Source of the DNA: Astropecten irregularis
Taxonomy: Eukaryota > Echinodermata > Asteroidea > Paxillosida > Astropectinidae
Direction of reading: 5' to 3'
Length of the DNA stretch: 64,000 nucleotides
Assembly: GCA_963971285.1 (NCBI GenBank)
Contig: OZ020251.1
Location: forward strand, 8,308,001 to 8,372,000
The notes below the pieces were generated by a model. It searched no databases and had not been told where the DNA came from. It worked only from the letters and a program-made list of their open reading frames with translations. Shown here in pieces: positions 2,830 to 53,907 of this stretch; position 1 is the first letter of the stretch, and every line of letters begins with the position of its first letter. The position numbers and the translations under genes were made by a program.

Positions 2830-5800
2830 CTACTCTAGACCTTCAAGTGATACTGATTGATTTGATTTGACAGGTTCCTCCTCTAGCATCACATCAGGGA
2901 TATTACTCATGGAAAGGCATCCTGCTTCCTTGTCTATCTGACCCATCTCCCCTTCAACCTCCTCTCCTTCATTCCTTCCCTCATCCAGTTCTTCCACTTG
3001 ACGTGTTTCATTTGTTGCAATGGAATCTGTTGGTCCCTCCAACCAGTGCACCAAGACCATACTGCAGATAACAAAGATCTACGAAGAGGAAATCAATAAT
3101 AGTAGTCAAAACATATTTAATTATCTATAGAGAGCGTGCACGTGGCGTCACTTGACAGCTTATCGGACATTTGGACGGCAAGCGTACGCGCGCACGCGTA
3201 CGCGTACGTACCAGGCAGCACCATATGGTTAATTTGCAAGCTACGCGAACGCATGTGGGTTACATACACTGTACATACGTGCATTATACATGTGTACAGC
3301 GTTGCCGTCCAAAATGGCATCACGTGGCTGCACAAGCTCTATGGTGCTGTGTGTTGTGTGCTCCAAAACACTTGACTTCATCATTCAATTGTTGTCAAAT
3401 ACCACTCATTGTGAAGTTCATCTTATAAGCAACAATTAAGTGGCAATTTGTAATATACGACGAAATTGGTTGAATGTAAAGGATCACTCTAACATAGAGG
3501 ATAAGAAGACATCTGTATACCGTCTGCTGTTGATGAATATTTCTACGTTTGTATACCCTAGACTCAAAAAAATAATAACTATAACGTCAGTATCCTTAAC
3601 TTTCCTTACCTGCATGCAATTAGCAATGCTGAACGTTATAGGGAAAGCCAAGGCTGTAGTATGGATAGTCAAGAATCCTGAAACCCAGGTGATCATCAAC
3701 ATGATGTAGATAGAGACAGCACCAATCAGACGTCTGGCTACTGACCCAGATGGTCTGGTAGTCTCACCCTCTTCCCCTTTGTGTGTGCAGAGGTTCAGAG
3801 TTGCCATGGTAATGGTGATGATATTATGACTCAGAATGAGCCCGATGGGAAGGAGAAGGCCGAGGTACATGGGTAGACCAGGAGACAGGAAACAGCTACA
3901 ATGAATGAAAATGATTAAAATATGAATCTGCATCTGGGAACAGTTATCACGACATTGATGACATCTAGAAACTGAAATGCCAACATATTCATGCAGCCCA
4001 AGTACAGTATGAAGATTACGAAAACAAGGGCCAGTTTGAGCCAAACGTGTTTAGGTATATCTAAATACCAACTGTTGCGTTCCACTTGCTTTTACAGGCA
4101 GAAATTTGGTTAAGGAAACTATATGAAGTCGGCATAAAATATTGGAGGAATTACAAACTTACTAGTTGTTGTTGTCGTAGTCATTTGTAGCTAAGAAGAA
4201 AGTTACCGTGGTTACAGCCAGTGGACACCCTAAAGAGAGGACGAAGAGACAAAAATCGCAGTTATATAAGAGACAGTAGTGAGTTTCGATGAAATATATA
4301 AGGATAGTTTGGTAATATATCCATGAACTCCTATGATTTTAATTGAACTTATAGAACTAAACATTTCTTACAAAAGTATTTTATGTATGAAATACAATAC
4401 TCGCTTTCGTATTTTTGAATTTCTTTACAATGCTTCAAGACATAATTATTTCTTTGAAATGTGTTCCTTTATCTCAATACAAGCAATGAAACGCTGCAAT
4501 GTACCCATCAACCAGAATGATGACCGGAAAAATATGAAAAAAAAAATATTCGGAGTAAGGAGGGCCTGCTAAGGCATATAAGAAAAATTGTGGCAAGGAT
4601 CAAAACGTCAGGCCCTCCCTACTCAAAGCATTTTATTATTTATTAGGTTTTTTTTTTTTTACTTTTTGCAAAAGTTTTGGAACTGAAACCAACAATTCTG
4701 TTTCATTATCAACATGAATTAAAATGTGCATTCACCCCATGCCAAGATTCCAGCTATGCAGTTACGATGGTTGTTATGTGATGACTCTGCCTTAATCGAG
4801 GTGGTGTAGATATTCCTAGCATCTATGGCTGTCCACATCATGGCTGTCAGAGGCAGATAGTGCAACAAGGCTGCCACAACTAAGCAGCCTGTCCTTGCAA
4901 GCTAAGAAAACAACAAGCGAAAACGGAGCAAAAGCAAACCTGTAAATCAATACGACTACTTGCAGGTCGGTAGAACTACGACCAAAGTGACCTACTTGAG
5001 GTCAATATGGGGGACGGTGCAAACTTCAAAAGTTTTTGTTAGTTTACAATTTGCCAGGTTTCCAAGACGCTAAGTCAAGTTTTGATCGGCTTATCACACC
5101 TCTAGAATAAACCAAGCTGCGTTTGTACGGGGACGGGATTGCTAGGGGGCTTGCCAATCGTGACAATCGAGTGTTAGGAGAAGAGTCTACCCTCCAAAAA
5201 TAAAGTGGCTCGTTAAGCCCCTTTAGAAGATAATACACCCCCCCAAAAAAAAAAAATATATATATATATATATATTTACAAAACGAAACAAACAAACAAA
5301 CATTCATTTTCATTCTCAAAAGATATTTTTAAGTAAGTTCTTTCAAAAAATGATACATTATGAGGAAAAGGGGAAACCAAAAATAACGATTTACAAATAA
5401 AAGGGTAGTGAGGAGATCAGGTGTGAATTCTATGTCGAGCAAGTAACTGGGTATCTAGTGGAGCACTAAAGGTGCATTAAGTAGACATACATGTATAAAC
5501 GTCAAACAAAACAAAACAAATCAATTAACGGCTCCTGTAGCCTCCCCCCCAAAAAAAAAACAAACAAAAAAAAAACAAACAAACAAACAAAACCTTAGCC
5601 TGGGTAAACCAGCAGATACCTTGGCATGTTGTACTCCTGCAAAAAACACCGCGTACATCAGCAACAGGGAGAAGACAAAGTTGAGGAATATTCCACTGGA
5701 TGCATTACGTCGCAGTCTCCTATTGACAAAAATAAGCAACATAACTTCAACATATCTTCAGTGACCAACAAAATATCTTTGCAAATTGCATGACATATTC

Positions 5801-6347
5801 ATAACACGGACAGTGATGTATGAACCAATGCAGTGTTGTGTATCCTAGCAAATAATTTAAGAACATTTAACAACAATTCTTACGAATTTTACCCTTTTCG
5901 TTGAAGAAATCATATAGTCGTAATTTTTGGAATGATTGCCTAAAACATGGACATGTTTACAGAACAGTAACTTTGTATTACGATAACAATTAACACAAAG
6001 ATGGGCGTAAGGAAATCACACTGTAGGACTTCCATTCTGGCTAGGAATTCATAGCTTATCTTAAAAAAAATTCATTACAAATTTTGTTTAATGAATTTTA
6101 ATCCTGCTGCACGATGTACTGCCTTAAAGACACAACACAAGGCAGAACAGAAAAGACGTATGCTTAATCACATATTGTTTGAAACAAGATAGTTCTTGAC
6201 AATCACAAACTATAGAGGATTACTGGTGTACCTCAAGGAAAGATACAGGACGATGACAATCAGGTAGGTAGCAGCAGAACCGACGCAACTTATCCGACTG
6301 ATGAGGTAATATGGCGGTTGGTAATTATCAAGCACATCTATGAACTC
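2830..6347 (-). CDS. Adhesion GPCR exons 18-23: seven-helix domain and tail
   Basis: Exon 18 (6347-6232) holds TM1. Exon 19 (5719-5620) holds TM2. Exon 20 (4901-4736) holds TM3, with the conserved Cys and LHYLPL. Exon 21 (4229-4163) holds TM4. Exon 22 (3895-3610) holds the loop-2 Cys, TM5, TM6 (MLMITWVSGF) and the start of TM7. Exon 23 (3078-2830) finishes TM7 and codes a tail of about 70 residues rich in Glu and Ser, ending SLEGLE and TAG. This is a class B2 (adhesion) heptahelical domain. The tail lacks an obvious PDZ ligand. Confidence 0.88.
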
Positions 6348-9300
6348 CTGCTCAAACAAGACAGAATGTAATGGTTAATCGGCATGTTTCGTAAATTCTG
6401 CTTTTCTTTTGCTTAGGTCTTTACTACACGTGCCCGACTACACATGGATTCTTTCTTAATCTGCACATACCACGAGTACTGCAAAGATGGCTGTCCGGTC
6501 ACATCGACATGTATATATTCCATTGGTCACTCCATCAAACTTACAACCAGCATCTGACCAATCACCGATGCCATCTTCCAGAGTCAAGTCCCAGAACACA
6601 CACTTTGTGCTATTAACCTTTATAGGTTTTCCTGTAGAGGCCTGAGAGAATATTGTGCAGAGTAAAACATCAGAACACAAATCATCTATTCCACTCAGAG
6701 AGTATGAGCTGATTTAAAGAATCAGATATAAACCATAAATCGATCCCAAAGCAACCCACCATAACTCATCCAAAGCCAACCCACCGAAGAAATAACACAA
6801 ACCCATCCCAGTAGAACACGCCAACCCAGCCCAAACTAACCCGATCCAACCCAAAGATATTGACAATGTAATGGCGAATAAAGTAAAATACATCAAGCAG
6901 TCAGCAAAGTGAAAAAAAAATTAAGAAGATCAACATTAGAAAGAAAATGATGATTGAGTGCTGTGAGATTTGAGGACGGTCTTGGACCCTGGATGGGAAT
7001 TGAGACCGTTTATGCCGGATTTCCATGGTCTCCCCTCGGACTCGGAAGTTCATGACTCGGATATGGTCTCGGACTCTTGACTGGATGACTCTTGGCCTTT
7101 TTCGGCTCAAGAACGGCAGATTCGACAAGTTTTGAGTGTATACCGACTAAATGTTACTGGATTTCTTAGCACAAAATCTGTATCAAGGCCAGGCACAAGC
7201 CACCTGGCGCCACCGTAATACACGGGTTTACACCTTGGCGGCCATCTTAGATGTTGATCGCAACTTCAAAACGAGGCACTTCCACGAATACGCACTTTTC
7301 AAAGTGTAAACCAATCAATTGCCGAAGACAATACACGGGTTTACACTTCGGCGGTTTTGATCGCGACTTCAAAACGAGGCACTATCACGCATGCGCACTT
7401 TTCGAAGAGTAAACCCGTGTATTCCATCGCTACACAATTTGTACGTACAAGGTGTATAAGGTGTCCTCCCCCCAAAAAAGGGAAAAAAAAAACAAACGAA
7501 ACCGAGATTTGTAAATGTTTAATCATATTTTATTATCACTTTGAAATCATAAATGACACATATCTGAAAAGCTTAGTTCCTCAGCTATAATTTGATACCA
7601 TTCATATGATACATACAATAAATAAAGACAATATGAAGCAAGGCTATCAAAAAGTCGAATACATGAATAGTTGTGCACTCGTGGCTAGTGGATTGTCTCA
7701 TTACGCCCTCTCGTGGTGGTGGGTTATCGCGCGTCTAACCATTACAGCGTCTTGCAATCTAGACTAGCATTTGTCTGTATCCATGTATGCATACCTTCAT
7801 CTGGATGACAACTGGTTCTTCTAGATCTGTCACGCCTTCGATAGCCACTGAAACCACGCCTCCTGAGAGGGTGAGGTTGGATGCCGCGCTCATCAAGTAG
7901 GTCGATGGAAAGAAAGTGTCATCAGCGAATAGGATGAAGCTGACTTTCAGATCTTGCTCCGTCAGGTTACCTGGAAAACAAGTGTCATAATGCTTATCAA
8001 CTTCATCGATTGTAAAAGGTTGCTATACACTCGGAACCAATAGTCAAAATGTGACTCACACGACATAAGTCACAGCTAAAGCTTAGGCATATAGTCAATC
8101 AACATGATCCCACTAAATATATAATCATAATTATAGGTCAATCGGGTAATATTTGTCATGAAAACGAAAGAAAAAATGTGATCACAAGAAATTAATAAAA
8201 CGAATCAAAACGGAAAAAGAAGAAAGGTATACCTGTTGTATCAAGAGGCATATCGCGTCCCTTTGGTAATTCAACAGATGCAATTACATGTTCAGTAGTT
8301 GGTGTTTCAATGCTTCGATCATACACCCTGACCTCTGACCCAGCCATCGTAGAATTGCTCTCTGGTGGTTGTCCGAGAGAGGACACATTGCGGACCGAGA
8401 CGAAACTGAGACCATTCCTACCATTGGAGGCGTTGATATTGAGAGCTTCGACGTGGATGAACTCTCTGTGGATGCTGACCCTCTCCTCTTGGTTCAGAGT
8501 CCAACTGATCTGGTCCTCAATAACTCGCAATGCAGATACTAAAGCTGTCTTGTGGTTCCTCTCCAGCGGTTCAAATGATCCGTTAGCATTGGCAGCACCC
8601 ATGATGTCATTGATAGTGTGAACAACAGCTCTTGCTACCTATAACATTTAAATGTTAAATTCACGCGTAAACAGCTATGTTATATTTCAAGTTTACACAG
8701 GACTTTTTTATGTTCAGGTTTTACATACACAACACAGACAGCTTGATTTTGTTTCTACATCTGCAGATCTGCACCGGTGTGATGCTTATTTGATTGAGAT
8801 TTTACAACGAAGACAATGAATCCTACACGGAAAAATAATTATTATGACACTTTTCGTATGGGTAATAAGATGTGCATGTCAACACAATGTCAGATGATAT
8901 CTGCGAGGGAAACATTATTAGCTGTTGTAACATTCGGCATGTCATGAACAATGATAATGTGTCACTTCTGAAGGAAGGTGTTTTTCGATGTCAAATTCTA
9001 TCAAGTATAAAGTAGAAATGATTATGCCTGTTTACCTGTATGTCTCCGGATCTCACACCGACAATTTTGTGCAGAATTCCAATCACCTCATGCAGCATAT
9101 GTGGAAACAACACGTCATCTGGTTTCCAGCCAACCATCACAGCTACATTCTCGGCAACCTCTACTACATTGGCATCAACAATGGGCATCTACAGGTAATC
9201 ACACAAAAGGCAACTGTAGTTATGGTGCGCACATCTCCAGAAATGTTTACCAACATACAAATCTTCGTAATAATTAGCCATTCTGATGATGATATAGTCT

Positions 9301-12300
9301 TACATTGACATTTTGTGCAATTGGATAATCAAGTCATATACCTGTGCAACATCATCAAGGGATGTTTTCTGCCTTTGTTGTCCACAATATATCTCAAAGT
9401 TTTCCCAGCTAGCATTCTGTACAAGCATACTAGATGAACAGTCGCGGGTGGATATTGGATGACCAGCTAAAATTGAATGCGAATGAAACGGAAGATTGTA
9501 TTACTACCAAGATGTAATGCTTTACATTTGCTCATCACTAGCAAATGAAAAAGGATAAAGGACAATTTGGGTAGCAGTCAATATAGCAATGCATGGATTA
9601 GATGAAAGCTAAGAGGTTAGAGGTTCAAATCCCGCTATAGTGAGTTCTCTTACTCCACCTTTGAATGGCATAAACTCGTCAGTTTACCCTGTGGTTTATT
9701 GGACCATTTGACATCAATTTTTACCCTGGGATTGGAAGGGCACAAGGTCCTACCTTTCTCGGTCCAGAGTGGGCATCTTTGGATGGACATCGCCTGTGAT
9801 CCTGGCTCTGTCATCGGCCAAGTAATGGCACCATACGCCTCATCACTAATCGTTGCTTCAATACAGGGGCCTACACGTAAATCTACAAACAACATTTTCA
9901 CCGAGACAAAATTGATACATATTTGCGAAAAAAAAAGTACCGACGGTTAGTTGTATGTAGAAGTTATTCCCGCGACGTCATCAGTTCGTATTGGCAGTAA
10001 AACACATCGATTGCAAACACAAGTGAAAACGTCTTTCGTACACACAACGTGCAGTGATCATTGATCTAATCTTTACCTGTTCCGACATTACCGATGGTTT
10101 AGTTTTTGTTCGGGTTTTTCATTAATGTTTATTCGCTAAAAGAAAAGCATAGCTGAATCACATTGATATGTTTATTCGTAATATTGTCTGAATATTTCCA
10201 TCTCATCTTTTGAAAGCTTATAAGCTTAAAGTCGAGCTGTAAAGGGATTTAGTTCGCATTACTCATGTATAAACCAATAATTTATGCAATAATGAATGAT
10301 ATTTTGTGCGATTTGATGTTTGCTTTCTTTGTCAAGCACGAGGAAAACGTTTAACAACGGTTTGGCAGGGCACCCAGCTCACTAGGGGTATGACGTTAAT
10401 AGAGGCACGTGTGACCTTGATGCATTGCGCAATGAGCAAGGATTATGTTCGTGTGAAAAAGTACGCGAACGAACTCCGGGATGCAAAACTAAAGTGTGTT
10501 CATGGCCACGAGGCGTGTTGCTGCTGTATGCAGCAAAACTACAATGGATGGTGTGAGTCTCCAACCGATTCGAACGTAAGGCTGATAATTTGTTAGCAGC
10601 ATATCCTTAGAACGGCAAGTGCTGCCGCGGCAATGGTTATTTTTGCAAAAGGTGTCGTGTCATGTGCTACTCAAAGAATATCTCTGTAATGACTTCGTTA
10701 TGACGTGATTGGGCCTCGAATTATCAACAATAATTTTTAGCTTTTCCGCATAGTGGCTATTGTTCCACGCGTAACTGTGGATGAACGAACACAAGTTGAC
10801 AGCAAATGGATAACCTATATTGATATTAATATGTGGATATTAAAATCTACTCGTAATCGCTGCGTGCTTGTTTGCATCTTCTATTAAGTTATCCGTGCCA
10901 TACTTACTTAGTACAGTGACAGTAAAACTGCATGAGTTTGTGTTCATTGAACCATCAGTCGCTGTATAAGTGAAATCATGAATACCAAAGCCAAGGACAG
11001 CTGGTGGGCTGTATGCAATGCTGGACTCTGTGGTTACAACGCCCGAGTTATCTGAAGCAAGAGGTTCCCACCAGTAAGCGGTGACATTAGATGAACCTTC
11101 CTCAGCAGCCAAAGTAAAGCTTACAGGGCAAGCGATCCGTGGTTGTTCTTGATCTGTATGCAAAATGAAGTATTGAGTAAGTTTTTGACGGGACTGATGG
11201 GGCGATTCAAGCCAATAAGTCGGTGGATAGGTTGCAATGCAAAGGTCATTTGAATCTGTTTGAGGTAAGGTCTGAGCCTACTATTTTGTGCTCCAATCTC
11301 GAGAAATTTCATTTCCTCGAAAAAAAAAAAAAATCTGTACACTTTCGTTGTTGCATTTGAAATCGCTAATGAAACTACCTGGGACGGATATGTAAAACGT
11401 GCACTTGTAGGAATTATCAGGATTATCCAAATCAGTCACAGAATACCGCACTGATGTTTCCATGGTGATGCCGTGGACAGGTAACGAAGTGATGTTAAAG
11501 ATGTCTCCACTCTTACAAGGTAAGAAATCACCCGCACCGCTAGCTGCCACACAGAAGGTTGATTCCACATAGCGTTGTGGTGGGTTCACTAGAGTGGGTT
11601 TGGTCCAGAAGACTTGGGTTGAGTTTTGACCAGAAGGAGCGATGGCCACAATGGTGGGCTGACCATTAGGGAACCTGGTGGCCTCGGATGGTGGACAGGT
11701 GTCTCCAAATGCTGAAAAATTAGCTGGAAATAGAACACACATTAACACGAAAATAACAACCAGCCGGGGTTCACCTTTTATCCAATGTCTGTTGGTTTGT
11801 CGTTTGACATATTTCCGTGAAATTATAAAATAATGTACGACTTTAATATCTTGTGGGTATTAATTTAGTTGTTCTTATTGTTTTGCAAAATGTTTACAGC
11901 AACTTTAAAACCAAGGAACAGTTTTAATATTTGTTTAAAGTTTTCTGCAACTATTTAGCTGTCATTGTACGAAGCGGTATTGCCCGGTGTATTCTCTATA
12001 GTAGCCGTAGTATGCCAAAGGTAATCCATGTCATGATGACGTAATGCTTTTCAAATTCCACATATTAGCAGAGCATATAAGCACCCAAATACAATTTGCA
12101 ACCACTATTGTGTTGAAGGTAGTATCACACTTTGGTTTTTGTCAAAGAAGTACAGATTCATGGGCAAAAATATCAAGGAAGATGCAGTCACAGTCATCTG
12201 TGAAAAGTATGATACTACCTTCAACGTGTATGATTACTAAGTCGGACATTTCCCCAATGCTACTTAAGCTATATTTCAGTCAATAAGTATGCTCCTCGCG

Positions 12301-15300
12301 GTTTTAAAGGACTGCGGGAGTACATTTCCGTTTCCGTAAGTTACATTTGTACTATGTTACCACTGTGTACAAAGTCAGTTATGTTTATGATTATTACAGT
12401 TGCTTAACTATAAATGTCGTTTCCTTCCTATTATTTTGAAAGACGCAAACATGTCATGTTGAAAAATATTACCAATGGAATGATCTCGATAAGACACGCA
12501 CTTCGAACGCACTTTTTGTTTGTTGAGACCGAAAATTATTAGAGAGAATTTAACAGAATAGGTCGATATAATGCTGCTGAAGCTTATTTTATAACCTATG
12601 ATACCAAGATCTTACCATTACAAACTACTGCTTGGTCTCGGTAGCATATAATCCCACCGTCTTCGTCAATCCGGTAAGAGCAATCAGCCAAACGACTCTC
12701 ATTGCCCAAACACCGGACATCGCTCATAATGTGCACACCACTGATGGATGCAAATACGTTTCGTTTGAAGGAGACGAGGACTCCATTGAAGCCCAGTTGG
12801 TTGCACACTACGTTGGCTTCATTCCAGCTGTTTTCGTCAATACATGTACGGATACCCTTCCACCGGCCTTTTGTGTGAATATCGACTCTGCCCATTTCAT
12901 ATGTCGGTCCGTTGACTAGGCGTACAGGGAATGATGTATCTAGATGCACAAAGAGTTATCAATAACGATTAATTTCTACATTAAATGAAGCTAAGAAAAG
13001 CACCGAGGCGACAGTCTGTGTCATCAGTTCAGAGAAAAATGCACTGATTATTAGGAGGTCTGAATGATTTTTGTTTTTAAACTTGATTCCATAGATCATA
13101 TCGAGGAGCATTAGATCTGAAGTTCAGGCCTGTTGTTGTCATGAGCAAGTTAAAGTGAAGAAAAGCAAATTGTATCTTAATCACGGGATCGAACAGACTT
13201 CAAGTCGAACAAACGCTTGGGATGAACTTATCTAAGAATCCTTTAATTTGCTATGCATAACGAGTTTAATACAGGGGAAGCTTGAATTTTTGAAGTTCCA
13301 TTTTCAGCAGCTCGATATACTTACCAGGTGGTTGGCATATGATCTCTCTTAAACCATAATTCCGCCAATCAACTCTGCCCTGTTCACAGTCAATCAGACG
13401 TCGCTCAGTACCATTACACGTGATATTTGTACGGTACATCACTTGATTGTTTGGTAGAAATTGCACAGAGGACTGGACAGTGTAGCCTTCCTCTCCAAAG
13501 CCGAGCTGACGACAAATGACACTGACATCATTTTGGTCCACTTTAGCATCATTCAGATATCCCCAGTGGTCATTTAAGTACAACTGGAGTAATCCAGATT
13601 TGCTGTTTTGTCCTCCTACCAAGCGAATCTGTGTCCTTTCACCAACTGAAATAAACAAGTAAATTTATAGAATTATACATATATCTATCTACCGTTGTAT
13701 ATTTAAATGTATGAAAATCATACGCATACAAAATGATATTCAGAATTCATTTACAAAGCTGAATGATCATAATCAACGATACAAACTGCATGCCCGTAAA
13801 AATTAGCCTCTTTCCTTTCAAGCATTATTTTCATTCAAATAAAACCCAATTCCTTGGACACTTGGGACACTTTGTAGGTACTTTTTAATTGTCCTACATC
13901 TTGAACTTTAGGCGAAGACTATTCTTAGGAAAGTTGGTAATAACCTTAGAAAAATGGCCTATAAACTGCTTGTCCAGTCAACTTCGTATATCATATGCAC
14001 TTCAAGTGCATCGATCTCCCCAAACTTCGATTTGATATTAATATTTACCTGAGTCTGCTTTTGCACAAACTACTGCACTACGATACTGAGGAATTTTATT
14101 TGTCCAAGGGTTAGTATTCCTCGCATTGTAACTACAATCGGCTAATGTTTCTTCGTCACCAGAGCACCTCCAACCTATCATACGTAAATAGGGATTTTTC
14201 GTTTGCGTATAACCACGCAACTGATCTGTTAATGCCAAACTGGGTCCATGGAATCCCAGCTGCCGACAGACTACGCTGGCCTTATTATTATCCCATTCAG
14301 AGTCTGCAAGCAATCTCCACTGATCCATGAAGAACATCTCTACTAATCCCTGTACTTTTAAGCCCAAAGTAGAATTGCTGCCAACAAGCCGGACCGGGTA
14401 GTATTCCGTGTCTGATGGAAGAAGGCGTGGGGAAGAAGGAGGATTGAGAACATGAATGAGAGATTGGGAATTGAGGAAATTTTCCTGAATGAGGAAAACG
14501 GGAAATTCAACTTATTTCATATACAGGGGTTCCCCGTAAAAGAAATACTTTGTGTCGATAACTATTATATGAAATGCAAACTGTTTGTCACTTAAAGATT
14601 GAAAAAAGTGATACAACTATATGGGTCTTGGCTATCACCATGTAGATATTGAACAAAATTGGACTGAAATTGAGGGGAAACCTAAGACTGAGTTACCCAA
14701 CCTCAAAACATGATTTTCATATTTCTTTTCAAACTCATTATGTGTGTATTGACCACTATGCGTGTTATCCTTGCAAATTTGTTTTTAAGGAGTACTCTTT
14801 CAATTGGTTAATTCTTTGCCAACTTTAGCCCCAATATGCCTAAATTCTACATGGTGATAGCCAAAATATGGTTGTATCCTATAACTTAATCTTGAAGTGA
14901 TAAACAGTTTACTTTGAACAAAATGGTTCCCGACACAGTGTTTACAAACGAAGTAAAGCGCTACACTTATAGTGATAATCTTTGAGTTACTACGTAGGGG
15001 GACTACTGTGCGCTACGTCTGGGTAGCTTGGGCTAGTACATTGGTTGCCATGGGGCAGTGCGTTGAGCGTCTCTGTGCTTTATCTACCAAATATGTATCA
15101 TGTCATGTGACGCGCTCTAAACCAATCACGGGACGGAATTTATACACGAGGTGCTATAAAGATTGTTCATTCCCTTAATTGCACTCTTGTATCTACACAC
15201 CCAACGTGTAACCGTAAAACAATGCAACCGCACAAACCCGTTCATATTAATATAATATTCCAGTTTTAAGGACATTTACTTGAACTTGAACACCAATTTA

Positions 15301-18300
15301 GGACACCGTTGTATGAAAAATATGTTGAAAATAAAATAGATGTGAACGTATACGAAAGCAATATGCTAAGTTTGTTAGGAAGCTCAAATTATGCCTTACT
15401 AAGAGCATTTCATTATGTGCACGTGTGACTTGGGAAAAAGATAAAATTGTCTTACCATGTTGACACATGGCTCCTGCAAGCAAACTGCATGTTGTCAGGA
15501 ATCCAGTGTAGACACAATCAATCAGTCTTTGTTCGTTGCCTGTGCATGCGACCTTTGTCAGATAGTTCAAGTCCTTGGTATCTTCCTCCATATACATGTA
15601 TAGTGTCGAGTTCGGTCCGTGCAGACCGAGTTGTCGACACACGACGCTAGTATCGAGTTGATCCCAGCCATCAGAACACACTGTTCCCCACTGACCATTG
15701 AAGAAGATTTCTACCCAGCCATTGCTACTGGATGTACCACCAACAAGTCTGATTGGAAAGTCATCTCCTGAAACACCAATTAAAAGTTGCAAAGTGAGTG
15801 AAATGAAATAAAACAGATTTCTAGAAAACATTTTCTAGAAAATTCTTTCCTGCAATACACCAAGGAGACGATAGTCGATTCTGAAGTGGAATGATGTTGC
15901 AGTTAACAAAAAAAGGAATTCAGAGAGATTGTACAATCTCAGCAAAAAGAGTGTTCCCTATCGTTAGCTCGATAGATTAATGATTACCGCCAATAAATCA
16001 ATTCCCGTTGGTTGGCAGGGTGGATTAACTGCAAACGGATCTAGATAACTACATAAAACATTGTTTGTCGAATTTAAAGAAGTTTTATATCACGATATTC
16101 TTGGGATACGTTTCCACTCTGAAAATGTCAATTCAATTCATAAGCAAGGAACCAAACGTCCATGTAAGGTTGGTGTTCCACAATAACACAAACGTTTGTT
16201 AAGACTGAATGGCCACAAAATTTACACAAATGTACATTGCATGCATTTTTTTAATGCTGATATTTAAAGATTCATTTGCGCCAATGTCGATAGGTTTCAA
16301 TTTGTGTATAAGTACAAAACCTTCCAGTTTTCGGAGGGTGGCCTTACCTGCATCACAGAATACAGCAGCCAAATGAAGTATGCATAAATCTACTCCCCAG
16401 TGATCTACATCACAGTTTGTGAGATTAGCTTCTGTGCCATTACAGTTGATGTTGTCGATGGCGTGATAGCGATTCGACATTTCATCACGCAATCTAGTAA
16501 GAGACACGCCCCTTCCGAAGTACCCTAGTTGTCGACAAATGACGTTAACTGCTTCTTTACTCAAACCATCGTTACTGGCACACACATATGCCCAGTAGCC
16601 ATTCAAAAACACCTGCACTATTCCACCGGTAGGGTAAGATCCAGAAACCAATCTTATTGGATGGTCGTCAACTTGAAATAGGAAATAGGAGACACAAAAT
16701 GTGAGGAATAGAAAATGGTTAAGAATATGCATTTCATTGATGTGGGTCTAAAAAAACACCAAGGCTTCAATTAGGCACTTGTATTTTCACAATCGATTCC
16801 AAGAAAACCGTGTTCTTAAACATGAAAGTTAAATCAGTGGATGACTGTAGTATTGTTAAATGCCACTAAGCAATTTAACCTTGTTTTGACTTTTTGTTAG
16901 TCAAGGTATTTAAAACATTATTTGTAAACATTGAGTAATTGTCCAGGTGTGTACACGGCCTGTTGTACGTGTGTTTGGAGCAATGGGACATCCTACAACT
17001 ATCATGGGTGTGATAGAGAATGCGATACGTGTAGAACATTCTGAAATGTTCCATCTATCGGTGTTGAATTTTCTATAAAATGGAGAAGTATATAAAAAGC
17101 TGTGAACCGAGCATCGCTTGAGATTAGTCAATCTGGAGAACATCGATAACATCCCGGCACTTTGTTTTGTTTGTGGAGTGTACCTCTATTAGTTCAACGA
17201 CTGATTGGTCAGGGGTTGGAAGTCAGAACTTTGTCACTGGAGACGTCGGATCATAGCTGGTCGTCGCATTTCTCATAGTGTAATTGGTAGCGATATACAC
17301 ACCAGGTCGCAAGTCACTTTAGGATCAAAATGTTTAAAGGAAAAAATGTTTTGGGTTTCCGAGCACTTTTTTGAGCGTTTTTGAGCACTATAATTCCCAA
17401 AGGTTTATTATTTTCATGTAGGCCTATTATGCTGTATCAGACAGAGTGTGCGCGCTGCTCTGTGACCTTAACCAATTATGTATTATACCCTTAACAAACC
17501 CTACAAAACAACTGCTTATTGTATAGTCATGAAATAGCAAAATAGACTGGAACTTACCTACATTACACATGACACTGATATCCTCGTATCCCCCAGTTTG
17601 CCATGAACTTTCCACTCGTAGGTTCTTACATTCAGACAAGTGTTCTTCATCGCCATTGCATACTATGCTGCTTTGATAATATGGCCCACGACTCCAGCCA
17701 AAGAAGGACTTATGGACCGTGATATTGGGTCCGATGAAGCCAAGTTGTCGACAAACTACACTGGTTGCAGCATCGTCCCAGCCCGAGTCAGTGATGCCAA
17801 CCCACTGACCATTGACGAACATCTCCAACCTCCCCTGATTCTCAGATAATCCAGCAGTAAGTCGAACAGACAAGAAATCGCCATTACTATCTGTAGCAAG
17901 TATAACAAAACAAAACAGCGAAAGACGTCGGCAGATGAGAGTGCAATTCAGTGGCGTAGCCAGGATTTTTTAATAGGGGGGGCCAACATGCATATTTTTG
18001 CCAATACCGGCTTGACCAGGCCTGCTTATTGGATGCACTAGGCCTACTGAATACGGGCGCCAGCATTGAGGCACGTTGGTGTTGTCTTGGGGGCGGGTAG
18101 GAGGAGGAGCCCTCAGCCTTTTTTTGGGGGGGGGGGGGGGGGAATGAATAGGGGGCCCCTGGCCCCCCTGCCTCCCCCCCCCCCCTGTCTACGCCAGTGG
18201 TGCAATTGCAGCAAAGTGAAATCAATTGTATCTCATCTTTAGCTACGTTTACCGAAATATGAAATGCAAAGGATGTAATCAAATTATGCAATTATGTGCT

Positions 18301-21300
18301 TACATTTTGACAAGCAGCGTTGTTGCCAAGAGTACCTTTGAAAAGTTCAATATGGAATACAAAGCTGCGTTCCTTAAAATAAAACAATGGCTGATGTTTT
18401 ACCTATCTCGCAATGGATTCCCACAAGCAAACAGTCATGCTGGTAGCCTTTTACCCAGCTATACGCAGCACAGTCAGCCAAAGATATCTCGTTTCCGATG
18501 CATTCAGGGTTTTTGAGATTAATCACGTCAAAATATCCAGGGAATCTCGTGAATGCTGCACTGGTTCCATTAAAGCCAAGCTCTCTACACACCACACTAG
18601 CATCTGATAATGTCCAGTTCGCATCACATACAGCTCCCCATTGACCTCTGAACAATACCTCAACATTTCCATTCTCGTCTGATGTCCCACCAGAGAGTCG
18701 AATAGCAAAATCGCCATCTGTGCCGAAATTAACAGCAAAAAAAAAACAAGTAATAAACCTCTGCAAAATACTCATTAGCCAAAATAATTACCTGACATTT
18801 ATACAAATGCTTGGAGTTGGGAGGGCCTGACGCATTTTGAATCTAGCAGGATCTTTCTCAATTGCCTTTGAAAAAGATGCGTCTGGCCCTTCTTACTCAA
18901 AGCATTTTAAAAACAAAAACAAACAGGGACAAAAAACCAAGTATAGAATCATTCCGCAATGTGCTTTCTGCTTGAAATTAGAAATGCAATTTCTTTTAAA
19001 TCTTAACAGGAAGAACACTTCAAAACCCATCCATTTATATTTCTTACCAATCTGACACACAACGCCTGCGTAGTCTGTGTTTGCACAGTACACACCCCAT
19101 CCTGTGAAAGCGCAGTCACTCAGTCGTTTCTCAGTGCCATGACATCGGACATCTCTGATCAGGGCATTCAGACTAAACCCTGCATCGTAGGAATTACTGA
19201 TGACTGAGGTGTTGTGGCCGAGGAAACCAAGCTGTCGACACACCACGCTGGCATCTGTTGGATCCCAACCTTTTCCGCATACAGGACCCCACAGGCCAGA
19301 CAAAAGAATCTCCACCAGTCCCTCATTCTCAGAAGCTTCGCCCACCAGGCGAACTGGAAAATCATCAAGATAGCTCACGTGGGTTGAATACGCCGAATCA
19401 TCTATATCAGAGGCGTTGGCTGCGTCAGGTGATTCCCCAGTATGAGTCGGTTGGCCCAAATCCAATACAGGTGTCTCTGGATCAACTGCCGCTATTGGAT
19501 CATATTCGATGTCTTTGGTATGAACAAAAAGAAAAAGTTATTCATTGCATCACGATCAAGAACAAAAAAATGCCAGGGGCCGATTTCATAAAACTTACGA
19601 CGCGTCGCAGAGTTAAGATGCATCCTTACTCTATGGACTCATCACATCATAGGCGACGCGTCGCTGCTACGACGCGTCGCAAATCGAGTTGCGATGCGTT
19701 GCAGGTCTATAAAATTGGCCCCAGATGCGGGGGAAAGAATAATCAAAATTAATGTATTTTTTTTTTTAATTATTTCGATGGATTTTGATAAATATCATTG
19801 CAGCCACCGTCTAAGTTGTCTTTTCAAAGAATTCAGTTCTTCATTGAATCACGATCGACCGGCCCAGCTGAGGAGCCAGCCAACCAGACAGTCAACCAAT
19901 TACAAACATCATCATCAATCTCATCAATATTGATGGGAAATGTCGCGGCCATGAATTTGGTGAGTGTAAAGCACTAGAGCACTTTGTCATGTTTGTGAAG
20001 TTTAAAAGTGGTGACGTCGTTCAACCGGAAGTTATGCGCCTTTAAAGGATTAATGACGTCAATATTCAAATACTATATACTAGGTAACTATAATGACGTA
20101 CGTCAATGAAAATTGCACAATATCCACACCAGACGCATTTAATCACTTTTACTAACTTTCAGTAATTTATGAAAATCTAACAAGAAATGATCGTCAAGAA
20201 AGTATGAATAAGTAAAGGTAACACAATTTCCTACTTTATCAGTCAGTATACGGATATTGCAATCAGCATGATCAGTTTTGTATTTGACCAGTCACACAAT
20301 TTAGTGTATTTTGAGTATGTCATTGTGTAAGGAGCGATTGATCACATGCGTAATTCCACTACGAAATGATACCCCGCACACCCTGTGGTTGTTCCCACAA
20401 CTACGTGTCTAGCTGCTATTTATTTTTTCCCAAAAACTTGTCAGCAGGACTTCTTCGTGACAATCGCAAGATATTGACATGAAACCTGGTGGGAACTTCG
20501 GTCGGGATATGAAGTTGTTTTAAAAGATTGACGTCATGATTACGTCATCGAGTATCACATTGCACACGTTTTTAGGAAAAACGTTGGTGCTTTTTAACTT
20601 AAGAATCACAGTACATCGATTTTGATACTAACATATTTAATTCAACAGGTAAATCTGCTGTGTACAAAATGAAGTTTAACACTTGAGAACGGAAGGATTT
20701 GGGCACATAAACCCGAGATGGCTGGAAAAAACACAGAGAAGTCTTGGGCTTTCAAAAAGTGTAAACGATGACGTCATGTGGGCTGTATAGCGCCAACTGT
20801 GGTCAACAAAAAATGTATAGTGATTACGTAATCCGAAAGTTTGGTATGTGTCAAGCCCGTATATGCACTGAGATGTTTGTGAAGTTTGAAATCAGTGGCG
20901 TCATTCAACCGGAAGTGTTGCCCTTTTACAGGGGAAATGACGTAATTGTTCAAATACTGTTTACTCGGGAAATACACAACATTCAATGAATATTGCACAA
21001 AAGTTACATTGTACGCATTAAATGACTTCTGCCAACGTTCAGTTGTTAGTGTGAAGAACTACCCAGAAGTTACCATCAAGACAACAGTGCATATAATTTT
21101 TGGAAATGTGACCGACACATATAAACAGTTTGCGCCACATTGTCATTCCCATTGCACAAATCACATTACATCTACATGTGTTCTACACTATCACCCAGTG
21201 CAGGATCGGTAATGATCAGTCACACAATTTAGTGTATTTCAATTATTGTCATTGTACTGTATGAGTGACAAATGAGAACTTCCGCAGCATGTCTTCTGTG

Positions 21301-27300: not shown

Positions 27301-29923
27301 TTAACTCGTACCCGAGTCAAGTCGTACCCCAGGGCCCAGTCAGCTCGTACCCAAGTCAGCTCATCCCTCAGTCAATTCGTACCCCTATGCAATTATGCAT
27401 AAACTATTGTTTGTGTTGTTCCTCGAATACCGTGACATTACGTGTTCTTATTTTTTTATGTTTCTTTTAATTGAAAATATTCACATTTCAAAATTATTAT
27501 TTTTCATCCAAGAGCCCGTCTCCCAAAAAATCTAGTTTCAAAATCGATTGAACAAAACGTCCCACCCATCACCTTCCGGTTTCAAAATCAAAATAAAATA
27601 CGCATTCCACCTGCCCACAAAATACCTGTCCATACTGATAGGAAACAGGCTTGAGGCCCTTGAGGGTTCCTGTGAGGGTGGAGAGGCTTGCACCGTCCCC
27701 GGTTGGTTGGCGTAGGCCCCTATGCTCAGCCCGTTCGGACTCCTCGGTTACACGGTGTATGATTTGATTTGATACACAGCAAAGAATGGACCACAGACGC
27801 CTGGACCTGTTGTTTAGGCCTAGGCTAGTACTACTACTAGCCGATGGATCAGGTCAAATTTATTGCAGTATTTGCAGTGGCTGACTTCTCCAATGAAGTT
27901 AAGATAAGACTTTATTTACAGGGAAGTTTCCCCCAGGCCAGCAGTCTGAGCTATTCAGTACCAGACATGAAGCAGACGGCAACAAAACATTGCAGTACAA
28001 GAAAATGATGCGTAATGCACTATTCACATTTCATATGTACCATTTACATGTACAGTGTACATACTGACCCAGTACTACTTGCGGTTGTCTAACGTAAATA
28101 AGTCAAAGTAGGCACAAATTCTAGAATTACGAGATCAGGTCTGAAGCTACAATTTCACTAGAGTCATGCCTGAATACCATATTACAATTAAGAAAACCTC
28201 TAAACAAGAACTGACCTCTCAGGAACTGATATTCCTGCTCTTCAAATTATTCTTGCCCCAGCGGAGATCATTCTGTTTCGACCGCAGAATGGAAGAGAGC
28301 GAGTTGAGTAGAGATTTCCGACCGCATCACACCCCGAACTTAAACTGGATTCAACCGCCCCAACAATCCAATGTTTTATGGTCAGTCTTTGTTTAGAATG
28401 ATGAAAAGTATAAACTTGGGATTTTCCCCACTACAACATATTTCAAATACCTTGACAGAATGATAATAAATAAACTGTGTGACTGACGGAAAGGAGTCTT
28501 ACTGGTCCTAATTAGAGAGCGTATTCGTACCTCATTAAATATGCGTAGGAGAGTGAATCGGCAGCGTACATGAACACACGTACACCCACACAAGATGGCG
28601 TCTGCCTGGATACAGAGTGGAGCGTACACTTATTAATATACAGTATATATACCATTCAATGCACCCACACTTTGTGAACATTTTACACGAGTGTAAACAT
28701 AGACTGGCACTCTGTCCTATTGCAATAACAAGCACTCGGCCGTCTCCCTGCATATTGTTTAAAACTCCATTCCCTTACAATACCACTACGAATGATTAAA
28801 ACAGACAGACAAGTAGGCCTATAGGTTTGTTTTTTTTTATAGTAGTTTTATATTCATCTTAATTCAACCTTTTCATAGATGTAAATTTAATACACGCATA
28901 TACGGAGTATGACAGTTTCGAAGTCGCATTCCTTGTGTAAATGGGGTACGTAGTACTTGACTCGGGTACGACTTAACCTGGGTACGAGTTAACCTGGGTA
29001 CGAGTTAACTTGGGTACGAGTTGACTTGGGTGTCATTTTTAGGGTACCAGTTGACTTGGGTACGAGTTGACTTGGGTACGAGTTAACTTGGGTTCGACTT
29101 GACCCATTTCGTCTCCATGAACTAGGGGCATGTTTGTTTAAAGCATAGGATCACGGATTATCTTGATCCGGATCCCATTTTAGCGTACCCTGCATAGGAG
29201 GTGGATCCCTAAATATGGGATTATTTGCATTAAACAAACAGGCCCTGTGTCTTTGGCCTATGCACAAGACGAAAATAAGTCAATTATTCACGACCTGTTC
29301 AATAAAACAGACCTGATCAGAAATGATTATCAATAATTTATTTATATGAGATGTATTTTTCCATCAAAATGTTTAGAAAATGACAAATAAATTCAAACCA
29401 GAAATTGACATCATTAAAGATGAAGAAGACTCAATACTAAGTGAAGCAACTGACGTAAACGAGAGATTGAAACAATACTGCTTCAATTGATACTTCAGGA
29501 ATGATAACTTGGACCAAAGAATTCAAACTATTAACGTTGGCGAACAGTTTCCAGAGCCATCACCATTATTCTCAGGGGTAGAAAAAGCTATGAATGAAAT
29601 CAAACAAGGAAAAAGCCCTGGTGCAGATAAAATACCAATATAAGTCATTCAAACAGGTAACACAAAATGTGAGTACATTTTTCTATAAGTGATGCACCTT
29701 AAAAAGATCCATAATCTGCACGATTTATACGCATTATATCACATCGTAATATTGAGTGTGTTTTTTTTCAGTACTTTAAAATAACGTCCTTTGCAATGAC
29801 AGTAATATGGACAACAATGAACGAAATAACATGATTCAACCTACCAAAATCAAGGGTTGCAATCTGCGCCGCTCCTCTGGTTCCGCTGGTCAACAAGACG
29901 AACATAAGCAACAGCAGCTGCAT
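2830..29923 (-). CDS. Adhesion GPCR with 8 SRCR, 2 HYR, GAIN/GPS and 7TM (23 exons, complete)
   Basis: Exons, 5' to 3' on the minus strand: 29923-29845, 19512-19048, 18717-18403, 17890-17558, 16671-16348, 15767-15456, 14411-14049, 13645-13325, 12939-12616, 11711-11379, 11153-10908, 9870-9754, 9466-9342, 9188-9036, 8638-8233, 7970-7795, 6641-6471, 6347-6232, 5719-5620, 4901-4736, 4229-4163, 3895-3610, 3078-2830. Every junction is AG/GT with matching phase, giving 5547 nt or 1848 aa. Protein layout: signal peptide 1-20, SRCR domains about 65-945, HYR-like 946-1138, cysteine-rich/HRM-like segment 1139-1219, GAIN 1220-1521 with GPS at its end, 7TM about 1530-1790, acidic tail. This is a cell-surface receptor. 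SRCR and HYR modules are protein- or ligand-binding, and the GAIN/7TM part couples ectodomain engagement to G proteins. The ligand is unknown; innate recognition or adhesion is an inference. Exon borders were read by eye and are strong because all phases close. Confidence 0.9.
3168..3316. mobile_element. TIR element in the last GPCR intron
   Basis: CATTTGGACGGCAAGCGTAC and the inverted GTACAGCGTTGCCGTCCAAAATG-type end; about 149 bp, with a run of cgtacgcg in the left half. Confidence 0.65.
4552..4624. mobile_element. Small TIR element, 'GGAGTAAGGAGGGCCTG' type
   Basis: 73 bp with ends ggagtaaggagggcctg and caggccctccctactc. A second copy is at 18813-18899, and both are followed by the same aaagcatttta flank. 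In a GPCR intron. Confidence 0.65.
5253..5275. repeat. (AT)n microsatellite
   Basis: An A run followed by about ten AT units in a GPCR intron. Confidence 0.85.
6471..6641 (-). CDS. Adhesion GPCR exon 17: GPS motif (non-canonical)
   Basis: Residues 1465-1521. CVFWDL, GDWSDAGC, YTCRC and IFAVL match the GPS spacing of Cys and Trp residues exactly. The cleavage triad, normally His-Leu-Thr/Ser after the last cysteine, reads Arg-Thr-Ala here. Autoproteolysis is therefore unlikely, although the hydrophobic tethered-agonist segment (IFAVLV) is kept. Donor CTCGTG/GTATGT; phase 0. Confidence 0.92.
7217..7423. mobile_element. Two adjacent TIR elements, 'AATACACGGGTTTAC' type
   Basis: The second copy (7330-7423) has perfect 15-bp ends AATACACGGGTTTAC / GTAAACCCGTGTATT. 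The first (7217 to about 7311) is the same sequence with a decayed right end. In a GPCR intron. Confidence 0.72.
7795..9188 (-). CDS. Adhesion GPCR exons 14-16: GAIN domain
   Basis: Exons 9188-9036, 8638-8233 and 7970-7795 (residues 1220-1464). The first two form the helical GAIN-A part (VVEVAENVAV, ALVSALRVIEDQI). The rest forms the beta-rich GAIN-B part, including VIASVELP, FPSTYLMSAASN and the near-terminal LEEPVVIQMK strand typical just before the GPS. Several N-glycosylation sequons (NVS, NST, NLT) are present. All three exon junctions keep frame. Confidence 0.85.
9342..9870 (-). CDS. Adhesion GPCR exons 12-13: cysteine-rich segment before GAIN
   Basis: Exon 12 is 9870-9754 and exon 13 is 9466-9342 (residues 1139-1219). 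Joined across AAAG/GTAGGA they read ITWPMTEPG, then CPLWTEK next to AGHPISTRDC, and NASWENFEIYC. This is the hormone-receptor-like stretch that commonly precedes GAIN in adhesion GPCRs. An alternative donor further on would also keep the frame but would break this motif, so the earlier donor is chosen. Confidence 0.75.
10250..10850. other. GPCR intron between exons 11 and 12
   Basis: No gene supported. A plus-strand 96-codon frame (10306-10596) with a CCCC cluster has no recognisable domain and lies wholly in the intron. Confidence 0.45.
10908..11153 (-). CDS. Adhesion GPCR exon 11: HYR domain 2
   Basis: Residues 1057-1138, a compact canonical HYR (hyalin repeat): IACPVSFTL, TAYWWEPLASDNSG, GIHDFTYTATDGS, CSFTVTVLS. 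Phase 1-1. HYR modules are Ig-like extracellular domains seen in hyalins and complement-type proteins. Confidence 0.88.
11379..11711 (-). CDS. Adhesion GPCR exon 10: HYR-like domain 1
   Basis: Residues 946-1056. Features typical of hyalin repeats are CPPSEATRF near the start, QVFWTKPTL in the middle, and VRYSVTDLDNPDNSYKC then TFYISVP at the end. An extra cysteine pair and a long central insertion make it divergent. The donor CCCAG/GTAGTT leaves phase 1. Confidence 0.75.
12113..12226. mobile_element. piggyBac-like MITE, deleted copy in a GPCR intron
   Basis: TTGAAGGTAGTATCACACTTTGG at the left and GTATGATACTACCTTCAA at the right, only about 110 bp. It keeps both termini and the tcatgggcaaaaatatcaag segment and lacks the middle. 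Lies between the exons at 11711 and 12616. Confidence 0.7.
12616..12939 (-). CDS. Adhesion GPCR exon 9: SRCR domain 8
   Basis: Residues 838-945. Opens FPVRLVNGPT and has VVCNQLGFNG and six cysteines (RTC, VVC, VRC, DC, IIC, VVC). Phase 1-1. Last SRCR before the HYR pair. Confidence 0.9.
13325..13645 (-). CDS. Adhesion GPCR exon 8: SRCR domain 7 (four cysteines)
   Basis: Residues 731-837. Opens TQIRLVGGQN and has VICRQLGFGE. The same cysteine pair is missing as in domains 3 and 6 (WGYLNDAKV; DWRNYGLRE). Phase 1-1. Confidence 0.9.
14049..14411 (-). CDS. Adhesion GPCR exon 7: SRCR domain 6 (four cysteines)
   Basis: Residues 610-730. Opens YYPVRLVGSN and has VVCRQLGFHG. The first cysteine is lost (WRLLADSEW) and so is its partner (NPWTNKIPQY), leaving four. 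Phase 1-1 with donor CTCAG/GTAAAT. Confidence 0.9.
14525..14955. mobile_element. CAGGGTGTCCC-type palindromic MITE, second copy
   Basis: Same family as the copy at 24366: the left end is acaggggttcccc; ggctatcaccatgtaga and the inverted ctacatggtgatagcc are both present. Ends are eroded. In the intron between SRCR domains 5 and 6. Confidence 0.68.
15456..15767 (-). CDS. Adhesion GPCR exon 6: SRCR domain 5
   Basis: Residues 506-609. The closest of the eight to the SRCR consensus: DDFPIRLVGG, WGTVCSDGWDQ, VVCRQLGLHG and six cysteines. Phase 1-1, donor AACATG/GTAAGA. Confidence 0.92.
16348..16671 (-). CDS. Adhesion GPCR exon 5: SRCR domain 4
   Basis: Residues 398-505. Begins DDHPIRLVSG, carries VICRQLGYFG, and has six group A cysteines ending AAVFC. 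Phase 1-1. The open frame runs upstream through the intron to a methionine followed by a hydrophobic stretch. That extension is intron, because a CAAG acceptor and matching phase define the exon. Confidence 0.9.
17558..17890 (-). CDS. Adhesion GPCR exon 4: SRCR domain 3 (four cysteines)
   Basis: Residues 287-397. It has the SVRLTAG opening and VVCRQLGFIG, but only four cysteines remain. The first (normally in WGTVC) reads WVGITDSGW here, and the partner near the C-terminal end is replaced in ESSWQTGGYED. In group A domains these two positions are normally disulfide-bonded to each other. Phase 1-1 exon. Confidence 0.9.
17949..18199. mobile_element. hAT-type MITE with perfect 8-bp target duplication
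   Basis: The left end CAGTGGCGTAGCCAGG and right end TCTACGCCAGTG are classic hAT termini. GTGCAATT is directly repeated at 17941-17948 and 18200-18207. The interior has long G and C runs. Lies in the intron between SRCR domains 2 and 3. Confidence 0.85.
18403..18717 (-). CDS. Adhesion GPCR exon 3: SRCR domain 2
   Basis: Residues 182-286. FAIRLSGGTS opens a complete group A SRCR domain with six cysteines and VVCRELGFNG. It is a phase 1-1 exon with donor GATAG/GTAAAA. Confidence 0.9.
18813..18899. mobile_element. Small TIR element, 'GGAGTAAGGAGGGCCTG' type, second copy
   Basis: ggagttgggagggcctg at the left and ctggcccttcttactc at the right. In the intron between SRCR domains 1 and 2. Confidence 0.62.
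19048..19512 (-). CDS. Adhesion GPCR exon 2: acidic linker and SRCR domain 1
   Basis: Residues 27-181. About 45 residues rich in Asp, Pro and Glu precede an SRCR domain beginning FPVRLVGEAS. The domain has the VVCRQLGF signature and six cysteines (PVC, VVC, RC, DC, YC, VVC), the group A pattern. The acceptor precedes ACATCGAATATG; the donor is ATTG/GTAAGA. Phase is 1 on both sides. Confidence 0.9.
19576..19722. mobile_element. 147-bp TIR element with repeated CGACGCGTCG
   Basis: GGGGCCGATTTCATAAA at the left and TATAAAATTGGCCCC at the right. The palindrome CGACGCGTCG occurs three times inside, plus a mutated fourth. Starts 64 bp upstream of GPCR exon 2. Confidence 0.7.
19960..21340. repeat. 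Two diverged direct copies of a ~400-bp repeat
   Basis: 19975-20405 and 20850-21345 share, in order, tttgtgaagttt, ttcaaccggaagt, attgcaca, tcacacaatttagtgtatt and a final tgttcccacaac/tgctcccacaac. They are moderately diverged. The accggaagt and gacgtca words recall the family at 59.7-63.9 kb. Confidence 0.6.
22205..24065. repeat. ~1.7 kb interspersed repeat, copy A
   Basis: Highly similar to copy B at 25027-26745, from the shared start (cgtcaaatgctttgacgcat) to the cttaatgtacttattgg-type end. It contains a piggyBac-like MITE insertion at 22480-22832 that copy B lacks. No coding function recognised. Lies in intron 1 of the adhesion GPCR. Confidence 0.85.
22480..22832. mobile_element. piggyBac-like MITE (TTAA), in repeat copy A
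   Basis: TTAA-AGGATGTATCATACTTTGG at the left and AAAGTGTGATACTACCT-TTAA at the right, forming terminal inverted repeats. Copy B has a single TTAA at the same place (about 25291-25294), so B is an empty site and the target is TTAA. Confidence 0.82.
24366..24813. mobile_element. CAGGGTGTCCC-type palindromic MITE (TA target)
   Basis: CAGGGTGTCCC and GGGACACCCTG ends with TA on both sides, as in Tc1/mariner-type elements. The element is nearly a long palindrome (ggctatcacaatgtagaat against attctacatggtgatagcc). Confidence 0.78.
25027..26745. repeat. ~1.7 kb interspersed repeat, copy B
   Basis: Direct repeat of copy A. It carries its own ~145-bp TIR insertion at about 25772-25916 that is absent from A. 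Both copies have an open stretch at their right end (in B 26557-26904, a hydrophobic 115-residue frame). In copy A that frame is cut short, so it is probably not a gene. Confidence 0.85.
25772..25916. mobile_element. ~145-bp TIR element inserted in repeat copy B
   Basis: GGGTCGATTTCA at the left and TGAAATCGACCC at the right. Copy A reads straight through this site (ggcgtccaggccaatag), so the insertion limits are clear to within 2-3 bases. Ends resemble the 19576 element. Confidence 0.78.
26959..27234 (-). CDS. Hypothetical two-helix ORF in GPCR intron 1
   Basis: 91 residues with two hydrophobic segments (GLYVLLWVAILINTF and SACLLATAVNFFLYP). Amino-acid usage looks more gene-like than the surrounding frames, and it lies on the same strand as the host gene. 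There is no recognised family, the start is weak, and it may be one exon of a nested gene or chance. Confidence 0.22.
   Translation of the reverse strand: MKNVAVGLYVLLWVAILINTFWSMEGNSPMQVHLNISGSACLLATAVNFFLYPRGMILAGCFHNYSTNQKGYNPTSLGLLAYKFICGFPIR
27283..29105. repeat. Region flanked by inverted arrays of a 17-bp motif
   Basis: At 27283-27390 the plus strand carries degenerate ctcgtacccaggtta units. At 28937-29105 it carries about nine units of the complement (tgggtacgagttaac). The two arrays face each other across 1.55 kb that holds no recognisable gene. The layout resembles a foldback-type element with repetitive termini. Confidence 0.6.
29125..29245. mobile_element. 121-bp TIR element upstream of the inverted-array region
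   Basis: GGGGCATGTTTGTTTAAAGCA at the left, inverted as TGCATTAAACAAACAGGCCC at the right. Internal ggatcc/ggatcc inverted words. Confidence 0.68.
29395..29660 (+). pseudogene. LINE reverse-transcriptase relic (N-terminal part)
   Basis: In frame from about 29378 it reads a typical pre-RT segment (DVNERLKQYC). Later comes EIKQGKSPGADKIPI, the conserved entry to the RT domain of non-LTR elements. In-frame stops interrupt it. Upstream of Gene 1's second exon, in intron 1. Confidence 0.7.
29845..29923 (-). CDS. Adhesion GPCR exon 1: signal peptide
   Basis: The reading starts MQLLLLMFVLLTSG, a textbook signal peptide, and continues to a GTAGGT donor leaving phase 1. The leftover G plus AC of exon 2 makes an Asp codon and leads straight into exon 2, so the assignment to this gene 10.3 kb away rests on phase, strand and the need for a secretory leader. 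An in-frame upstream ATG at 29966-29968 exists. It lies almost at the TATA-predicted start of transcription, so the ATG at 29921-29923 is preferred. Confidence 0.72.
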
Positions 29924-29985
29924 GGTTGGTGGCTTGTATGGTGACTGTAAGTCAGTCTGACCGTCCATGCATGGTGCATCGGGTG

Positions 29986-29992
29986 TTTTATA
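29986..29992 (-). promoter_or_regulatory. TATA box of the adhesion GPCR gene
   Basis: TATAAAA on the minus strand, about 63 bp before the chosen ATG. Initiation 25-30 bp downstream would fall near 29956-29961. That lies just inside the alternative upstream ATG and so favours the inner start codon. The sequence is clear; its function is inferred. Confidence 0.5.
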
Positions 29993-30204
29993 TGATACGT
30001 GACGGTGCTTGGTCTTTATAACATCACTTACATCACTGTAGTGATATTGGTCACTACATATTCTGCTTGGTGTTAAATTGTAATATCAAACGGCTTTCGC
30101 TGATTGGTTGACCATATTGAGGATCGACCAAACTAGATTTTTGCACACAGGGACACTAGGTGGGCAAAGACCCAGAATGCTGACTTCATTTTACTTATTT
30201 GAAA

Positions 30205-31670: not shown

Positions 31671-31719
31671 TGTATCGTTGTTTTATATGATATTTATTTA
31701 TTTTCATTGAAAAGTGAAC

Positions 31720-53865: not shown

Positions 53866-53907
53866 CCTTGGGATCTGCAGTTCGTGAAGATCACAAAGGG
53901 AATCTTT

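Follow-up and report, generated by a model that had tools for sequence, protein, structure and literature searches.

We found a 23-exon gene model on the minus strand of a 64,000-nucleotide stretch of the Astropecten irregularis genome (the window; contig OZ020251.1, positions 8,308,001 to 8,372,000), in which eight SRCR domains, one firm and one probable HYR domain and the GAIN/GPS and 7TM body of an adhesion GPCR were joined in a single reading frame. The exon chain, its domains and an altered GPS triad were read directly from the DNA. That the SRCR/HYR half and the GAIN/7TM half form a single gene is likely but unproven, because the acceptors of exons 12–14, which bridge the halves, are weak and a blind scan recovered these exons poorly. 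An earlier sequence-only reading had described the domain fusion; the R-T-A at the GPS and the four-cysteine form of SRCR in three of the eight domains were absent from it.

Gene model and exon chain

Stop-free frames and simple splice-site scores gave a model running from an ATG at 29923 to a stop codon ending at 2830, with a coding length of 5,625 bases when the stop is counted (Table 1). All 22 introns had GT–AG borders, and the joined product was 1,874 amino acids long with no internal stop. The sequence-only reading had taken the in-frame closure of 23 exons as showing a real chimera; its strand, exon number and endpoints were recovered here, but frame closure by itself says little on whether there is one gene, since a junction fits by chance in one third of cases and the sites were chosen with phase in mind. 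The product length given there, 1848 amino acids, was 26 short of ours. The donor at 9754 in exon 12, which outscored the retained donor at 9688, would give 1,852 amino acids. Exons 2 to 12, including every SRCR and HYR exon, were all of phase 1–1, as is usual for extracellular modules that spread by exon shuffling.

The leave-one-out codon score was above zero in 21 of 23 exons (slightly negative in exons 7 and 19) and barely so in exons 12 and 13, at 4.3 and 2.2 bits. The five lowest acceptor scores belonged to exons 12 (2.7), 14 (2.9), 2 (3.3), 15 (3.7) and 13 (3.9); four of these five lie in exons 12–15, which span the junction of the two halves. In a blind scan of the minus strand from 2000 to 34500, which scored acceptors, donors and codons with a codon table trained on the model and an acceptor threshold of 3, every stretch in places 1 to 18 (scores 61.7 to 20.2) overlapped a model exon, with a different boundary in two cases, 3061 (exon 23) and 14484 (exon 7). 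Exon 19 was recovered with a different donor. Exons 12 and 14 were excluded by the acceptor threshold, and exon 13 was partially recovered at place 23, where its score of 13.9 put it behind four stretches that belong to no model exon (19.6, 17.3, 17.0 and 15.7).

Exon 1 was attached to the chain through its signal peptide and phase alone. When 19513–34500 was scanned for signal peptides, four start/donor rows were obtained; the top two were the two starts of exon 1, and the other pair belonged to a lower-scoring candidate at 21845–21920. An in-frame ATG lies upstream of the exon 1 start, at 29968. Intron 1 is 10.3 kb long, a size partly explained by a segment of about 1.7 kb that is present twice within 22288–26716, 2.5–2.8 kb apart and in pieces 79–96% alike. 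Other pieces near 22.5 kb were repeated near 33.2 kb. Missing exons in this intron were considered and rejected, since the window yielded no SRCR match beyond the eight and unassigned candidates there scored at most 19.6.

Table 1. Exons of the SRCR–HYR receptor model, with positions in the window
Exon	Position	Strand	Content	Evidence and remarks
1	29845..29923	-	Start codon and signal peptide	Top two rows of signal-peptide scan
2	19048..19512	-	Linker and SRCR 1	Pfam, SRCR profile; weak acceptor (3.3)
3	18403..18717	-	SRCR 2	Pfam E 1.3e-20 scanned alone
4	17558..17890	-	SRCR 3 (4 Cys)	Pfam E 2.8e-19 scanned alone
5	16348..16671	-	SRCR 4	Pfam E 1.1e-17 scanned alone
6	15456..15767	-	SRCR 5	Pfam match in whole-protein scan only
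7	14049..14411	-	SRCR 6 (4 Cys)	Pfam E 9.5e-16 scanned alone; codon score slightly negative
8	13325..13645	-	SRCR 7 (4 Cys)	Pfam E 8.8e-17 scanned alone
9	12616..12939	-	SRCR 8	Pfam E 2.3e-16 scanned alone
10	11379..11723	-	Probable HYR 1	Below Pfam cutoff (E 0.0026, 18.5 vs 21.7 bits)
11	10908..11153	-	HYR 2	Pfam E 2.5e-16 scanned alone
12	9688..9870	-	Cysteine-containing, pre-GAIN	HormR-like by eye only; acceptor 2.7; alternative donor 9754
13	9342..9466	-	Linker into GAIN	Top-scoring candidate for phase 1-to-0 change; weak in blind scan
14	9036..9188	-	GAIN, probably helical part	Acceptor 2.9
15	8233..8638	-	GAIN	Last part within phmmer match to ADGRG2
16	7795..7970	-	GAIN	phmmer match to ADGRG2
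17	6471..6641	-	GPS motif, R-T-A replacing H-L-T, then tethered-agonist stretch	Pfam, phmmer
18	6232..6347	-	TM1	Pfam, hydropathy
19	5620..5719	-	TM2	Pfam, hydropathy; codon score slightly negative
20	4736..4901	-	TM3 and start of TM4	Pfam, hydropathy
21	4163..4229	-	Remainder of TM4	Pfam, hydropathy
22	3610..3895	-	ECL2, TM5, TM6, first part of TM7	Pfam, hydropathy
23	2830..3078	-	TM7 end, acidic C-tail, stop	Pfam, hydropathy

SRCR and HYR modules of the ectodomain

Eight stretches of the whole product matched the Pfam SRCR profile above its cutoff (E 1.9e-142, 465 bits), in agreement with the number read earlier, and the related SRCR_2 profile was also above cutoff (91.7 bits). No ninth SRCR was found among 2,788 stop-free stretches on both strands of the 64 kb at E up to 1. 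The profile used in that search was built from the eight model exons, so its recovery of exactly those eight was circular and the absence of a ninth was the informative part. Pairwise identity among the eight domains was 25–48%, indicating that the array is probably old. SRCR 1 matched two other SRCR proteins, DMBT1 and M130 (which we take to be CD163), both of which, to our knowledge, have no GPCR part.

SRCR domains of group A are defined by six cysteines each. Six were present in 5 of the 8 domains and four in SRCR 3, 6 and 7, each of which was without the first and fifth cysteine as read by eye, a paired absence that fits the loss of one disulfide. A column print of the domains had four invariant cysteine columns, with the other two blurred by gaps.

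The HYR profile was above cutoff on the whole product (64.3 bits). Two HYR domains had been proposed; the one in exon 11 was confirmed when scanned alone, but exon 10 stayed below the Pfam cutoff (Table 1), and the count suggested by the sequence is one firm and one probable domain. The fold of exon 10 predicted without relatives was uninformative (mean pLDDT 42.0, with no residue reaching 70), and HYR 2 had no significant match in PDB (best E 0.075).

GAIN, GPS and seven-transmembrane body

The GAIN/7TM core of the sequence-only reading was supported. The 7tm_2 match exceeded its Pfam cutoff (79.7 vs 20.6 bits), placing the product among adhesion GPCRs (class B2), and so did the GPS match (40.1 vs 22.5 bits). 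Pfam gave no GAIN match in the product; GAIN and GPS together matched ADGRG2 by phmmer (E 2.9e-10), the match covering the second half of a 312-residue query. When the receptor body was compared with PDB by phmmer, all 30 distinct sequences with E up to 0.01 were adhesion GPCRs, the best being ADGRE5 (E 7.4e-20). Hydropathy peaks filled 12 rows, which merged into a single signal peptide plus seven membrane segments. The long N-terminus with modules and a signal peptide, a further class B2 feature, is present provided that the chain is one gene. Exons 12–13 resemble a HormR domain on visual inspection only, and neither Pfam nor PDB gave a HormR match for exon 12 and the pre-GAIN stretch. A HormR domain sits directly before GAIN in the metazoan, choanoflagellate and filasterean receptors described in passages of PMC12716839.

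Altered GPS triad and predicted loss of cleavage

The GPS triad of the receptor was R-T-A, at the place where ADGRG6 (6v55) and ADGRG3 (7qu8) have H-L-T in phmmer alignments to PDB. Other aligned PDB entries carried A-L-A, H-L-A or S-L-S, which were probably engineered. The receptor therefore does not have the H-X-S/T of a self-cleaving GPS. According to the passages available from PMC13062082, the GPS histidine is the base and the Ser/Thr the nucleophile of cleavage, and arginine, present in ADGRB1 and ADGRB3 as R-L-S, should not serve as base. ADGRB1 and ADGRB3 thus resemble our receptor in having Arg at the histidine place but keep the Ser nucleophile, where the receptor here has Ala. Because the base and nucleophile residues are both lost, GPS self-cleavage is predicted to fail and the cut site looks disabled; with this triad, the usual cleave-and-release signalling would be unlikely.

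The residues following the triad were I-F-A-V-L, which keep the tethered-agonist pattern. According to a review (PMC13197933), Drosophila Cirl still functions when only cleavage is lost, whereas T>A at the first agonist residue gave no rescue. By analogy, tethered-agonist activation of the receptor is uncertain, because Ala occurs naturally at the place where the Cirl T>A change did not rescue.

One gene, two genes or two products

The weak acceptors of exons 12–15 and the poor or missing recovery of exons 12–14 in the blind scan would also suit two adjacent genes, a secreted SRCR/HYR protein (exons 1–11) and a separate adhesion GPCR (exons 12–23 or 15–23). Either half alone would be a sensible protein, and intron 11 carries two AATAAA, at 10176 and 10133. 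However, no signal-peptide-like ATG exon (hydropathy of at least 2.2 over 9 residues, donor above 2) was found between 10907 and 8700 in any phase. Intron 11 was also ordinary for this gene; at 1,037 bp it is not longer than introns 6 (1,044 bp) and 16 (1,153 bp), and its A(A/T)TAAA density was 1.9 per kb, with 0 to 5.9 in the other introns. Moreover, the phases match across the junction. The best bridge from the phase 1 of HYR 2 to the phase 0 of exon 14 was exons 12 and 13 together; 10 of the 12 candidate phase-1 bridging exons were forms of one or other of these two, and exon 13 was the top candidate for the 1-to-0 change. The list included forms of exon 12 that are shorter or have another end, of which four make the 1-to-0 change alone, and two short stretches near 9282. 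Overall, two genes appear quite improbable.

Early polyadenylation could instead give two products from one locus, a secreted SRCR/HYR form and the full receptor. The secreted form is possible as judged from intron 11, because read-through past the HYR 2 donor gives a short tail and then a stop, with the two AATAAA downstream; such hexamers are frequent by chance at this locus, however, and we consider the two-product reading rather unlikely. It is similarly doubtful that the protein is a decoy or adhesion-only receptor, binding ligand and sending no signal through the tethered agonist. The R-T-A at the GPS, with Ala in the first agonist position, and a TM7 end without what we take to be the usual Q-G step would agree with a decoy, but the following agonist residues F-A-V-L and the 7TM match are retained. 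A single-gene adhesion GPCR with an uncut GAIN domain and a ligand-sensing SRCR array is our preferred explanation, and as a whole it is fairly probable.

Other features of the window

Pieces of a protein O-fucosyltransferase, which we take to resemble POFUT1, were found at 34939–41098 on the same strand as the neighbouring receptor gene; the Pfam O-FucT profile was above cutoff at 34939–35190, sub-threshold at 40745–41098 and without a match at 36274–36864. A BEL/Pao-type retrotransposon occupied 51983–57382 (minus strand), with Peptidase_A17 above cutoff in two adjacent frames and a sub-threshold integrase match; the frame 56483–57382 within it had no Pfam match. On the plus strand, 58498–59346 was stop-free (283 aa); an ATG in it is followed by a membrane-anchor-like run, and Pfam gave no match. 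Tandem arrays were present with units of 77 bp (44234–45284), 19 bp (62099–62657) and 129 bp (60335–60671 and 63315–63787), the two 129-bp arrays being alike by eye.

Relation to known receptors

Fusion of SRCR domains to adhesion GPCRs is already described in several animals; what is new here is the module order and the seemingly disabled cut site. The sequence-only reading had named amphioxus as the known source of such receptors, which is correct (PMC2246102) but too narrow, as sponge (PMC4302439) and starfish (PMC10855680) SRCR/7tm_2 proteins have also been published. The amphioxus adhesion GPCRs bear SRCR in the N-terminus, as here; compared by description rather than by sequence, they have no HYR and no stated SRCR count in the relevant passages of PMC2246102. 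The sponge receptors Aq712029 and Aq715659 likewise carry multiple SRCR repeats, and HYR is absent from the domain list in the text and figure legend of PMC4302439, again a comparison by description and not by sequence. For Acanthaster planci, 7tm_2 (PF00002) is among five domain types listed for SRCR proteins in Table 1 of PMC10855680, where species are grouped by clusters according to the caption; 7tm_2 is thus shared with our receptor, and the order, SRCR number and presence of HYR are not stated in that table. ADGRG2, ADGRE5, ADGRG6 and ADGRG3 share GAIN/GPS and, where the PDB entry includes it, the 7TM part. Placozoans have C-type lectin domains on adhesion GPCRs (PMC6321704), and microbial molecules raised the expression of two separate genes of a sponge, one for an SRCR protein and one for an adhesion GPCR (PMC6208332).

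Open-licence PMC text yielded no paper joining SRCR, HYR and adhesion GPCR, or SRCR, HYR and GPS. Two papers in which "hyr" accompanies SRCR or adhesion-GPCR terms were rejected, since it stood for the mussel genus Hyriopsis in PMC7430831, the only paper among those listed to combine SRCR with "hyr", and for hyrax in PMC6626334. A precedent for HYR on an adhesion GPCR may exist in the choanoflagellate GPCR paper PMC12716839, which is indexed once for "hyalin repeat" and twice for "hyr", with no passage outside the references in the text available.

Proposed working and significance

SRCR arrays in other proteins bind polyanions and microbial surfaces. In the single-gene receptor, the order would be signal peptide, eight SRCR, two HYR, a HormR-like stretch, GAIN/GPS, 7TM and a short acidic tail. 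The SRCR array would bind polyanionic or glycan ligands extracellularly, as SRCR proteins do, and the HYR pair may act as a stalk or protein-contact module. Ligand or pull would then be transmitted to the 7TM part through the uncut GAIN domain, and the receptor would signal without releasing its N-terminal part. Recognition followed by G-protein signalling is plausible by analogy, and we infer an immune function. The more specific proposal of a pattern-recognition receptor signalling directly to G proteins, with a GAIN domain lacking base and nucleophile and the scavenger array as a permanently attached antenna, seems improbable at present.

If the locus proves to be two genes, both would be ordinary. 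If it is a single transcript, HYR would become a further module found alongside SRCR on adhesion GPCRs, and a natural GPS without its nucleophile would help in asking whether cleavage is required in receptors of this type.
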